The notes under the pieces were generated by a model. The model saw nothing but the letters and a program-made list of their open reading frames with translations. It was not told the origin of the DNA and did not search any database. Shown here piece by piece: positions 14,950 through 23,200 of a stretch of DNA of 64,000 nucleotides. The translations under genes and the position numbers were made by a program. Source of the DNA: Zasmidium citrigriseum (taxonomy: Eukaryota; Ascomycota; Dothideomycetes; Mycosphaerellales; Mycosphaerellaceae); NCBI GenBank assembly GCA_002786025.1, contig NHNW01000001.1, positions 806,001 to 870,000 of the forward strand, written 5' to 3'. Within the stretch, counting starts at the first letter, position 1; each line of letters begins with the position of its first letter.

Positions 14950-15921
14950 ATGGACGTCGACGTCGCGAATGCCTCTGGCTTCTCAGCTTCTCCTTTCGAC
15001 GGTGATTGGAATCTGTCTTCCGACAATCAGAATGGAGGGTTGGGCGCCATCGAGCAGTTCAACGCGAACTTCGATACGAACAATGGCACCATCGATCCGC
15101 ATCTGACAATGAGCAACCCTTCCACGCCGAAGAACGACTACAACAACGCATACAATGGCCACATCAACGGTCTTGACCAAACGCTCAGCCCAGCACCATC
15201 GTCATACGAATCGTTCCAGCCTCAGTTCGAAGGCATGACTCCGTACTACCAATCTGTTGAGCCGAACCCGAATCCAATCTACCATCCGTCGCCACTGCGA
15301 TACAACCACCGTCGCTCCGTCTCCGAACCGCCAGGCGGCCCAGGAATGCCTCCACCACCACCGCCCATGATTCTTCATCGCGACAACCACTGCCTTGGCC
15401 ATCCTATGCAGACGAAGGCGGTTCCACTCAAGAGCGTGCCAAGAGGAAGCAAGCAACGTCCACACCCATACTCTCGCAAGACAAGAGAAATGCACCGGCC
15501 AGACGTCCGACGAGCACAGACTCAGCCCGTTCGCGCTGCTCCAACAAGTACACCACATCTGATGCCACCACATTACATGCCTCCACAAGCCATCATGCAG
15601 GAGCAGCACGGGGTGACTTCTCGTGTCTGTACTCCAACTCCGGATATGTTCATGTCGCCGCCGAACATCGATCCAGCTTTGACGGGCGTGCCATCTCCGA
15701 TGCAGACGCCACGGATGAAGAGTGATCCGAACAAAACTTTGCTGATTCCGATTGCGGTGGATGAGTTGCGAGCGATGGTGTTTGAGGCGGTGCAGCAGGC
15801 GGTTGCGGGTTCTGAGGCCAGGAAAGAGAATGTTGATGTCGGTAGTGTTGGGACTGAGGATACCAGTGAGGTCAAGAAGGTGGAGGATGAGGGTGAAGTC
15901 ATCGCTGGGATCGATCCGTGA
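14950..15921 (+). CDS. Low-complexity protein, unknown function
   Basis: This is a single exon of 323 residues. The N-terminal 100 residues are Asn/Ser/Asp-rich. Next come Arg-Arg-Ser-Val-Ser-Glu-Pro-Pro (a likely kinase or 14-3-3 type site, about residue 122), a run of seven prolines, and a basic segment at 160-195 (Pro-His-Pro-Tyr-Ser-Arg-Lys-Thr-Arg) that could be a nuclear localisation signal. After a Pro/Met-rich stretch, the only clearly folded-looking part is a short helix at about 270-290 (Val-Asp-Glu-Leu-Arg-Ala-Met-Val-Phe-Glu-Ala-Val-Gln-Gln-Ala). It ends in an acidic tail. The composition suggests a nuclear regulatory or scaffold protein, but I recognise no family. Confidence 0.7.
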   Translation: MDVDVANASGFSASPFDGDWNLSSDNQNGGLGAIEQFNANFDTNNGTIDPHLTMSNPSTPKNDYNNAYNGHINGLDQTLSPAPSSYESFQPQFEGMTPYYQSVEPNPNPIYHPSPLRYNHRRSVSEPPGGPGMPPPPPPMILHRDNHCLGHPMQTKAVPLKSVPRGSKQRPHPYSRKTREMHRPDVRRAQTQPVRAAPTSTPHLMPPHYMPPQAIMQEQHGVTSRVCTPTPDMFMSPPNIDPALTGVPSPMQTPRMKSDPNKTLLIPIAVDELRAMVFEAVQQAVAGSEARKENVDVGSVGTEDTSEVKKVEDEGEVIAGIDP

Positions 15922-17277: not shown

Positions 17278-17284
17278 GGCATTG

Positions 17285-17295
17285 TAGCAAAGTGG
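17285..17295 (+). promoter_or_regulatory. Pol III A box of the tRNA gene
   Basis: TAGCAAAGTGG fits the A-box consensus and forms the D-arm region. It lies before both introns. Confidence 0.8.
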
Positions 17296-17378
17296 TTACT
17301 GCGATTGACTCGAATTAAGCTCTTGAGAAGTCTCTTCTCTGGAGTGACAATACGATATCAATTCCCTTCGGGGGCGTA

Positions 17379-17389
17379 GGTTCGAATCC
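17379..17389 (+). promoter_or_regulatory. Pol III B box of the tRNA gene
   Basis: GGTTCGAATCC is a perfect B-box consensus in the T-arm. It ends two bases before the second intron, so that intron does not interrupt the promoter. Confidence 0.9.
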
Positions 17390-17391
17390 TG

Positions 17392-17444
17392 GTATGTGTG
17401 CTCAACAGTACTACCCTATCAAACATCTACTAACGTTCTTCCAG
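17392..17444 (+). other. Spliceosomal-type intron inside the tRNA-Ser gene
   Basis: This 53-nt insertion begins with GTATGT, contains a perfect TACTAAC branch sequence at 17428-17434 and ends with CCAG. Those are the donor, branch and acceptor signals of the mRNA introns in this window, at the same length. It separates position 64 of the T-stem from the last T-stem base and the 3' acceptor strand. Only its removal restores the acceptor stem and T-stem; the unspliced downstream sequence cannot pair with GGCATTG. Whether it is removed by the spliceosome or by the tRNA endonuclease cannot be told from sequence, but the signals point to the spliceosome. Confidence 0.8.
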
Positions 17445-17470
17445 CCAATGTCGTAAAGTTGAAACAACTC

Positions 17471-17477
17471 TTTTTTT
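17471..17477 (+). terminator. Pol III terminator of the tRNA gene
   Basis: A run of seven T starts 17 bases after the discriminator base, on the sense strand. That is the standard Pol III stop signal. No such run lies inside either intron. Confidence 0.8.
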
Positions 17478-20214: not shown

Positions 20215-23200
20215 ATGGCATCCGCATCCGCCCCGCGAGCGCTATCACGAGCCGTACGCAGAAAACGATGGCCACAACCGTGTGCCTCGACCTCGACCCG
20301 GCACATTGCCACTGCGCCCGCCGTCGAGTACAATGAGCCCGAGCCGCCCTTTCCAGAACCCGCGCCTACACTGCCGTCAAGGACACAGCGCCAGCAAGAC
20401 ATCCGCAACGCGAAGCCTTTCTCCGACTTCCTAACAGACACCTTCAACCGCCAGCATGACTACCTCCGAATATCGCTTACGGAGAGATGCAACCTTCGGT
20501 GTCTATATTGCATGCCAGAGGAGGGCATTCAACTCTCCCCGAACAAGGACCTCCTCACCACCGCCGAGATATACTACCTGTCGGCACTCTTCGTCAACCA
20601 AGGTGTAAATAAGATCAGGCTGACTGGAGGCGAACCGACTGTGAGAAAGGACATAATACCACTCATGCAGCAGATTGGCAGTCTGAGGCGTGACGGCTTG
20701 AAAGAGATTGCCTTGACAACCAATGGCATTTCGTTACATCGGAAGCTGGAGGACATGGTCGAGGCCGGCTTGACTGGGGTCAACATCAGTCTGGACACAT
20801 TGGATCCGCACCAGTTTGTGCTTCTCACACGAAGACAAGGCTTCGATGCCGTCATGAAGAGCATCAATCGCGTAAAAGACATGAATAAGCTGGGCGCTGG
20901 CATTAAGCTCAAAATCAACTGTGTAGCGATGCGTGGCTTGAACGACCACCAAATCCTACCGTTTGTCGAGATGACAAGACATGAGGATGTCGAAGTTCGA
21001 TTCATCGAGTACATGCCATTCGACGGCAATAAATGGTCGGAGAGGAAGATGCTTCCATACACCGAGATGCTGGACCTAATCCGCACCAAATATCCCGACA
21101 TCGAACGTCTCAAAGGTGCCAAAAACGACACTTCAAAGACATGGCAAGTCCCTGGCTTTCAGGGAAAAGTTGGCTTCATCACCAGCATGACGCACAACTT
21201 CTGCGGGACTTGCAACCGACTGAGGATCACCTCTGATGGTAATCTCAAAGTATGTTTGCATGGCGAAGCCGAAGTCAGTCTTCGGGATATGTTACGAAAG
21301 GACCATAACGCCGAGCCCATGGACGAAGCGGCGTTTGAAGCTCTACGCCAGCTTGAGCTCGATCGGCGGAAACAGAACGACTTGCGCTTTGACGGCGAAG
21401 AGGGCTGGATCACCAAGGAGCGAGAGCTTCTTGACATAATAGGCGCTGCTGTCAAGCGGAAGAAGGCCAAGCACGCCGGCATTGGAGAGCTTGAGAATAT
21501 GAAGAACCGGCCGATGATCTTGATTGGTGGGTAGGATTACTTGTTCCTCGTTTTCACAACATGAGAAGAATGGCGAAAGCCGCACGAAACCACAAATTAC
21601 GATATCACGAATCTATGAGCTTATTGCGCGGAGCTTGTATTTCGTACTTATACTGCCCATCAAAGTTTGCGTGTGTATTGACTGACATCGGGTAGGTGAG
21701 CAATCACGGAGAACACAGACAGCGCCTTCATCGTTAAAACGAAAGCGAAGATCTCTGGTAACTGGATCGCATGCACCGTGGTCGACTGTACCTCTTCATC
21801 TGCTGGGTCCGACGGCAGTGGCTCTCGCACATGCTCGCTGCTATTCATCAGAGAGTCGGAAACCTGAGGACGATTCAGAAGATGCGTCGCAAGCTGTGGA
21901 AAAGGATAACACCGCCACGCCGTCGAGATTGAGTTCGATGCTCGGATTCCAGAGCCTGAGCGGCCTATTTCAACAGCCTACGAGAGGCAGATATAGCAGT
22001 CGCAGAAGGCCGGAAACTACGCAATCGCCCGAATCGAATGTGAACTCGCAGACTTCAGACGGGGACAAGCCCACGCCTGATCCTACCTTCGTCCCGTTGG
22101 TTTTACAACACTCACTAGCGGACGCATCGAGCGCCGATACTGCTAGTGCAGCAAGCACACGCGATGCACGCGGTACGGAAGATCGGCCTGTTCTTGTGCC
22201 AAATAGTCGAGCAGACACGATCAGAAAAACGAATCGCCAACCAGGTGATTACGCATTCAGAAAGACGAACAGGCCACCAAGAATGTCCGCCAAGGCTTCT
22301 GCCCAACACTCGAACTCTTATCCTCTTCGCCAACGCCGAAGTCCAGTACGGCGCCGAGAGAACCCATTCGAAATGGGAGGTTTTGCTCTTACAAGCGAAG
22401 AGCGTGAAGACTTCAGGGCTGTCGACCCACCAGTTGCCACAAATGCTATGCAGAAAGACAGCTCAGGACTCAGCAGCGACGATGCGGCGTCAGTGGACTC
22501 TATACTTGATCCTGGGATGACAAATTTGTCCTTCCAAGCTGAGAAGAAGTCAGGCCCGTCGTTGAGTGCATCATCAAGTAAAGCAAAGCCGAACGTGACG
22601 AAGTCTACGAACAACACATCTTCTGCTGCACCACCGAAAAGCACAACACTCACGCACGTGACTTCGAGCGGAGAAGCACACATGGTCGACGTTGGTGCGA
22701 AGGAGAGCACCAGGAGAATCGCAGTCGCCCATGCTAGAGTGACCTTCTCAAACACGGAACCATTTCGACTCATTTTCGAGAATACAAACAAGAAAGGAGA
22801 CGTGCTCAGCGTGGCTCGTGTTGCAGGAATCATGGCTTCGAAGCGAACAGCCGACCTCATTCCTCTGTGCCACCCCATTCCAATCTCCAAGGTAGAGGTC
22901 AATGTCGAGCTTCAAGTCCCTCGTTCTCTCTCATACTTGAGGGGCCTCAATGGCTACGGTGCAGTCGCGATCCATGCTGTGGTTGAATGTGTTGGTCCAA
23001 CAGGGGTGGAAATGGAAGCCTTGACCGCCGCGTCCGGGGCAGCATTGACTGTCTACGACATGTGCAAAGCCGTCGATCGCGACATGACTCTGACAACTAC
23101 CAAGGTAGTGTACAAGAGTGGCGGTCGAAGTGGTGATCACATTCATCACAAATGGGCCGAGTACCGTGGCAGGGACTTTTTGAAAGAAAGAGGCATCGAT

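Follow-up and report, generated by a model that had tools for sequence, protein, structure and literature searches.

Spliceosome-type introns in tRNA genes of Zasmidium citrigriseum, and a tRNA-Ser(CGA) gene carrying introns of two kinds

Introduction

The introns of eukaryotic nuclear tRNA genes are usually taught as being of a single kind, placed in the anticodon loop and excised by the tRNA endonuclease. Among other structured non-coding RNAs, spliceosomal introns have been described in U3 snoRNA (PMC5832005) and in fungal rRNA genes (PMC11782384), hosts that resemble the present one in being structured non-coding RNAs and differ from it in not being tRNAs. The U6 genes of fungi (Schizosaccharomyces pombe and others) offer a further likeness, that of a short spliceosomal intron lodged in a Pol III RNA (PMC5832005). 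According to titles cited by that paper, U6 of S. pombe is interrupted by an intron whose splicing is impaired in pre-mRNA splicing mutants. The paper itself singles out U3 and U6 as the only small structured RNAs in which interruption is known to be frequent. Here, by contrast with U6, the hosts are tRNAs, many genes are concerned with up to three introns each, and many of the RNAs would require a second splicing system. Finally, Cyanidioschyzon merolae, with its permuted and intron-containing genes, shares with the present case a large proportion of disrupted tRNA genes, but these depend on bulge-helix-bulge cleavage (PMC3978253).

Spliceosomal introns in structured non-coding RNA were thus already known, and what is new here, at least to us, is the host molecule, a tRNA, and the extent of the phenomenon: no earlier report of spliceosomal introns in nuclear tRNA genes was found in the open-licence literature searched. 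This article describes a tRNA-Ser(CGA) gene located in a 64,000-nucleotide stretch of Zasmidium citrigriseum DNA (the whole of which is called the window), together with the other tRNA and U6 genes of the same assembly that are interrupted in a similar manner. Among named records, a protein encoded in the window is most similar to one of Zasmidium cellare (54% identity over its length), with Fulvia, Dothistroma and Lecanosticta among those that come next; a record lacking a species name reaches 63%. Zasmidium belongs to the Mycosphaerellales, and the protein similarity agrees with that placement.

Anatomy of the tRNA-Ser(CGA) gene

Once joined, the tRNA-Ser(CGA) predicted by ARAGORN is 81 nt long and made of three exons (17278-17314, 17357-17391 and 17445-17453). 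The features of the gene are as follows.

17278..17314, + strand: exon 1, with the acceptor 5' strand, D arm, and anticodon stem and loop up to position 37 (ARAGORN)
17285..17295, + strand: A box (TAGCAAAGTGG), assigned by eye
17315..17356, + strand: anticodon-loop intron of the ordinary type, 42 nt, at 37/38 (ARAGORN)
17357..17391, + strand: exon 2, with the rest of the anticodon arm, the long variable arm and the T arm through position 64
17379..17389, + strand: B box GGTTCGAATCC (sequence)
17392..17444, + strand: spliceosome-type intron, 53 nt, between T-stem positions 64/65 (ARAGORN, blind deletion scans)
17392..17397, + strand: 5' splice site GTATGT (sequence)
17428..17434, + strand: branch site TACTAAC, whose predicted branch A (17433) is at a distance of 11 nt from the final base of the intron
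17442..17444, + strand: 3' splice site CAG (sequence)
17445..17453, + strand: exon 3, with position 65, the acceptor 3' strand CAATGTC and the discriminator G
17471..17477, + strand: T7 run, putative Pol III terminator (sequence)

A long variable arm and G73 are identity features of tRNA-Ser, and the joined molecule has both within a complete cloverleaf. As in genes read from an internal promoter, A and B boxes lie inside the gene and a T run follows it, all three having been named in the preliminary description of this DNA; the A box was assigned from the usual consensus. The same description had announced a Ser(CGA) gene with an anticodon-loop intron and a 53-nt insert bearing GTATGT, TACTAAC and CCAG, and both ARAGORN and the coordinates bear it out: at the level of the DNA, it is confirmed that 17278-17453 holds a tRNA-Ser(CGA) gene interrupted by two unlike introns. 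The 42-nt intron is of the sort removed by the SEN endonuclease in eukaryotes generally, whereas the 53-nt intron lies at 64/65, carries spliceosomal signals and has no bulge-helix-bulge. Its GTATGT...CAG ends and the branch site close to the 3' splice site are those of U2-type introns, and the insertion is best read as an intron of spliceosome type lying within a Pol III tRNA gene.

In silico excision of the 53-nt intron

Taken unspliced with 60 bases on each side, the gene gave no tRNA with ARAGORN even with introns allowed, and Rfam at its gathering score found no tRNA in the whole window. When 17392-17444 was cut out, ARAGORN called a complete tRNA-Ser(CGA), so that the earlier claim of a tRNA restored by excision of exactly this segment holds. 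The choice of segment was also examined by a blind deletion scan, made without any intron motif. Only 32 of the 10,812 single deletions of 40-90 nt in the gene yielded any tRNA, and the top score was reached solely by the 53-nt deletion at 17392-17444 and its one-base shift, the two being indistinguishable; a wider blind scan, with deletions of 35-130 nt, had the same winner. For comparison, the strict intron motif occurs in the window at about 1.1e-5 of (start, length) pairs, a rate that includes the 53-nt intron itself and any real mRNA introns.

What does the insert do to the fold of the RNA? It had been proposed that it abolishes both the acceptor stem and the last T-stem pair. The second half of this proposal stands, since the predicted fold of the unspliced RNA loses that pair together with the direct stacking of the acceptor on the T stem, but the first does not, because all seven acceptor pairs are retained in that fold around an enlarged loop. 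The ViennaRNA minimum for the unmodified spliced sequence is not a cloverleaf, and minimum-energy folds proved uninformative on the cloverleaf. The case for this gene becomes much stronger because at least 17 other tRNA genes and three U6 genes are interrupted alike.

Interrupted tRNA genes across the assembly

In the 44.4-Mb assembly (148 contigs), 18 tRNA genes carry 28 spliceosome-type introns, with one to three per gene.

Ser(CGA): 1 intron, T arm
Ser(TGA): 1 intron, variable region
Leu(CAA): 1 intron, T arm
Leu(CAG): 1 intron, variable region
Pro(CGG): 2 introns, D arm and variable region
Gln(CTG), two genes: 1 intron each, anticodon stem
Glu(TTC): 1 intron, acceptor 3' strand
Arg(TCT): 2 introns, acceptor 5' strand and T arm
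Arg(CCG): 2 introns, D arm and T arm
Arg(CCT): 3 introns, acceptor 5' strand, T arm and acceptor 3' strand
Val(AAC): 1 intron, D arm
Val(CAC): 1 intron, variable region
Lys(CTT): 1 intron, acceptor 3' strand
His(GTG): 2 introns, both in the T arm
Asp(GTC): 3 introns, D arm, T arm and acceptor 3' strand
Initiator Met 1: 2 introns, acceptor 5' strand and D arm
Initiator Met 2: 2 introns, D arm and anticodon stem

The list was drawn from B-box loci, from an Rfam tRNA search (63 of 1309 candidates scored) and from places matching the initiator anticodon arm. The introns measure 50-78 nt (median 54); 27 are GT-AG and one is GC-AG. All 28 have a predicted branch A 9-12 nt ahead of the 3' splice site, a regularity partly built in by the selection of some candidate loci with intron motifs, including a looser branch motif; in one initiator intron the branch motif is poor (ATAAC). 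For eight genes (the two initiators, Val CAC, Lys, Ser TGA, His, Arg CCT and Asp), placement by hand contributed to the choice of splice sites.

With anticodon introns of up to 70 nt allowed, ARAGORN makes no tRNA call on 13 of the 18 unspliced genes; the other five are called at 100.6-105.0, but three of these calls misidentify the tRNA and two, although correct in the anticodon, have an odd structure. Allowing anticodon introns of up to 150 nt adds unspliced calls, with long introns, at L059, L063 and L074. After excision every one of the 18 genes is called, with scores of 105.5-120.6. Of 119 B-box loci, 12 are rescued at a score of at least 107 by the real intron motif (50 candidates), and none by any of five swapped motifs (14-24 candidates apiece, 92 together). 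In the motif-removal trial an AT-rich repeat, L083, likewise exceeded the threshold and was dropped; one motif-removal run was confined to loci of at least 40% G+C. Each of the 18 genes is followed, at no more than 51 nt, by a run of 4-7 T, as expected of Pol III terminators.

Not all members of the set are equally secure, the weakest being Ser(TGA) and the third intron of Arg(CCT). Decoys slid along the sequence tied or beat the true score in 4 of 20 cases for Ser(TGA), 2 of 20 for both Leu(CAG) and Val(AAC), and 1 of 20 for one Gln(CTG) gene (L098). Arg(CCT) is the least fixed, as the motif run preferred another third intron and kept the first one in, and the joined acceptor stem has several G-U pairs. 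As drawn by ARAGORN, Lys(CTT) and His(GTG) have a variable arm and an anticodon intron whose placing is doubtful.

Without intron removal, 20 distinct tRNAs scored at least 106.5 in the 148 fetched loci presumed to be nuclear, four loci on C41 and C51 having been taken as mitochondrial and set aside from this count; several of the 20 belong to a tRNA-like family with a doubtful anticodon. The figures of 18 interrupted and 20 uninterrupted genes are both lower bounds from a sample and do not amount to a census. Like ends (about GCTGATCTGGTCYAATGGTAAGAC...GCTGGTTCGACTCCGGCGGTCAGCA) and very unlike middles characterize the tRNA-like loci L089 (C78:193900-196200), L085, L086, L107, L109 and L021, several of which lie in one 2.3-kb stretch of C78. 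The loci called Ala(TGC) (L007, C98:129384) and Thr(AGT) (L130, C65:454565) have ends that look identical and middles that differ, for which reason one of these identities is probably mistaken.

The B-box pattern GGTTCGANTCC occurs at 133 places against 79 in a reversed control, the places fetched being these apart from some copies of AT-rich repeats and about six unlisted ones. Two other patterns show no excess over their reversed controls, namely GGTTCGANCCC (52 against 58) and GGTTCAANYCC (110 against 129), a minority of places having been read for each. The AT-rich repeats (L015-L018, L032, L033 and others, on several contigs) contain paired B-box sites about 207-209 bases apart. Nine further loci (L068, L069, L051, L023, L024, L097, L027, L077 and L078) have a B box and tRNA-like 3' surroundings without a resolvable 5' half, and are perhaps further multi-intron tRNA genes or relics.

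Intron positions and sequences

Counted on the spliced sequences, the 28 introns are distributed over the acceptor 5' strand (3), D arm (6), anticodon stem (3), variable region (4), T arm (8) and acceptor 3' strand (4). Inspection by eye reveals some shared sites: the two Gln genes are both cut at 28/29, Arg TCT and CCG at 62/63, Leu CAA and His at 63/64, and Glu, Lys and Asp at 69/70. When each intron was submitted to a blind scan (40-90 nt, with the other introns of the gene removed), the deletion carrying the motif came top or tied in 14 of the 28 cases and was beaten in the remaining 14, mostly in loops, the variable region and the anticodon stem, regions in which structure alone is a poor guide to the ends. 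In Arg(CCT) and His(GTG), inspection by eye shows that one intron cuts the T stem beside the T loop and that its final AG supplies the G of the B box, which therefore remains readable in the DNA.

An origin as an introner-like element was considered for the window intron and rejected: it matches only itself, with no near-identical copies in the genome. Nor were the first 21 tRNA introns more similar to one another than shuffled sequences, the best pair (the two Gln copies) scoring 14 and the maximum of 20 shuffles being 14 as well. A selective lack of T runs was also discarded, as TTTT is present in 2 of the 28 introns against 8.7% of random segments, and there is no depletion.

Initiator tRNA genes and paralogues

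The motif GGCTCATAACC, which represents the initiator anticodon arm, occurs at 13 places in the assembly, all of which were read. Two of these, on C67 and C72, are initiator-Met genes, each with two introns whose sites differ between the genes. Their spliced forms are perfect cloverleaves (scores 117.9 and 117.5), and their exons are identical at 68 of 72 positions, the four differences making up two compensatory acceptor pairs. No uninterrupted initiator-Met gene was present among the 13 places, a search that a cut or altered anticodon arm would escape. Every cell requires an initiator tRNA, and since no uninterrupted one with this loop was found, a complete assembly would imply that both genes have to be spliced. 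Exact scans with an initiator-tRNA pattern also matched 4 stretches in a bacterial and 6 in a viral collection; the four that bear names come from Micromonospora or Actinoplanes.

The exons of Ser(CGA) are conserved as well. Two Ser(AGA) genes are related to it, one on C83 that has the anticodon intron and lacks the 64/65 intron, and one on C67 that has neither. As joined, Ser(CGA) and the C83 gene agree at all but 6 of their 81 positions. Two compensatory acceptor pairs (5, 6 and their partners) account for four of these; the others are position 34, which is the first base of the anticodon, and position 37, at which the limit of the intron is ambiguous. A second intact Ser(CGA), which the preliminary description had named as something that could overturn it, did not appear in the assembly when the gene and its spliced form served as queries, and only the two Ser(AGA) relatives were matched, at 92-94%. 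Used as DNA queries, spliced Gln(CTG) and Glu(TTC) found only their own genes, the Gln query missing its own paralogue and the Glu query an uninterrupted Glu(TTC) gene on C13; such negatives, that for Ser(CGA) included, therefore exclude near-identical copies only.

U6 genes

Three U6 genes were found, each with an mRNA-type intron of 56-58 nt that begins with GTAAGT and occupies one common site. The fungal U6 introns to which the preliminary description had appealed as a parallel thus have counterparts in this very genome.

C117:112082: U6 gene (L043)
C72:164981: U6 gene (L044)
C59:490950: U6 gene (L045)

Further U6 genes could exist, because 47 of 2195 candidates were scored. In two of the three, the B box GTTCGAATC is inside the intron; the intron of S. 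pombe U6 contains the B box.

Proposed processing pathway and its alternatives

Ser(CGA) is very probably a working gene whose Pol III pre-tRNA loses its extra intron to the major spliceosome before tRNA processing. The analysis shows the anatomy of the gene, the exact recovery of cloverleaves on excision, the recurrence of such introns and the conservation of exons between paralogues; that Pol III transcribes the gene, that the intron is spliced out and in which order the steps occur is what we infer from sequence. Directed by the A and B boxes inside the gene, Pol III would transcribe it as far as the T7 run, yielding a precursor with two introns of unlike kinds. The nuclear major spliceosome would then remove the 53-nt intron at 64/65 as it does any ordinary short fungal spliceosomal intron, whereupon the T stem would re-form and stack on the acceptor stem. 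Only a tRNA folded normally in this way would be open to RNase P and RNase Z, to CCA addition and export, and to the tRNA splicing endonuclease, which takes out the 42-nt intron. The spliceosome is placed first because tRNA-processing enzymes need a folded tRNA; some early 5' processing is possible, however, since the unspliced RNA can pair its acceptor strands in the predicted fold.

Could the interrupted genes simply be dead copies, with intact genes elsewhere doing the work? Some acceptors do have uninterrupted genes, such as Glu(TTC) on C13 and the two Ser(AGA), and the assembly may be incomplete and the survey is a sample. Yet the exons give complete cloverleaves, the acceptor differences between the two initiators and between Ser(CGA) and Ser(AGA) are compensatory, and a downstream T run has been kept in all 18 genes; moreover, the only initiators among the 13 anticodon-arm places are the two interrupted ones, and no intact Ser(CGA) was found in the assembly, which together make decay of the set highly improbable. 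It is likewise very unlikely that the loci are parts of longer Pol II transcripts from whose spliced RNA the tRNA is cut. Pol II transcripts are admittedly the normal home of spliceosomal introns, but the window gene has A and B boxes and the set has downstream T runs, U6 is a Pol III RNA interrupted in the same way, and the window gene stands between open reading frames ending at 15921 and starting at 20215 (frames of at least 300 aa being those listed).

The insertions might also be tRNA-endonuclease introns at odd sites, cut at a bulge-helix-bulge as in Cyanidioschyzon or archaea, and tRNA genes disrupted by such motifs are indeed reported as common in C. merolae (PMC3978253). This is extremely unlikely here: the central helix of such a motif is in register at just one of the 28 introns and is impossible at 17391/17445, so that this potential refutation, also foreseen in the preliminary description, is not favoured, and 27 of the 28 introns combine GT-AG ends with a sequence resembling a branch site 9-12 nt upstream of the 3' end, for which an endonuclease has no need. 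Removal by the spliceosome from a Pol III precursor is thus the reading that we retain.

Implications

With at least 18 genes interrupted, part of the tRNA set, the initiator included, would depend on the spliceosome. It is likely, if less assured than the account of the single gene, that the spliceosome is a general tRNA-processing machine in this lineage, on which much of the nuclear tRNA set and every initiator-Met gene depend. The placement of the introns in the acceptor, D, anticodon-stem, variable and T regions would then tie the spliceosome to translation by way of tRNA, and suggests that it is able to act on many short Pol III transcripts. If this is true, standard tRNA finders overlook such genes, and tRNA counts in genomes of this kind may be wrong. 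These genes also offer a natural test case for the spread of introns into non-coding genes and for the order of tRNA processing steps. Finally, and again if the reading is true, spliceosome inhibition in such a fungus would halt translation through the loss of tRNA as well as through the loss of mRNA.
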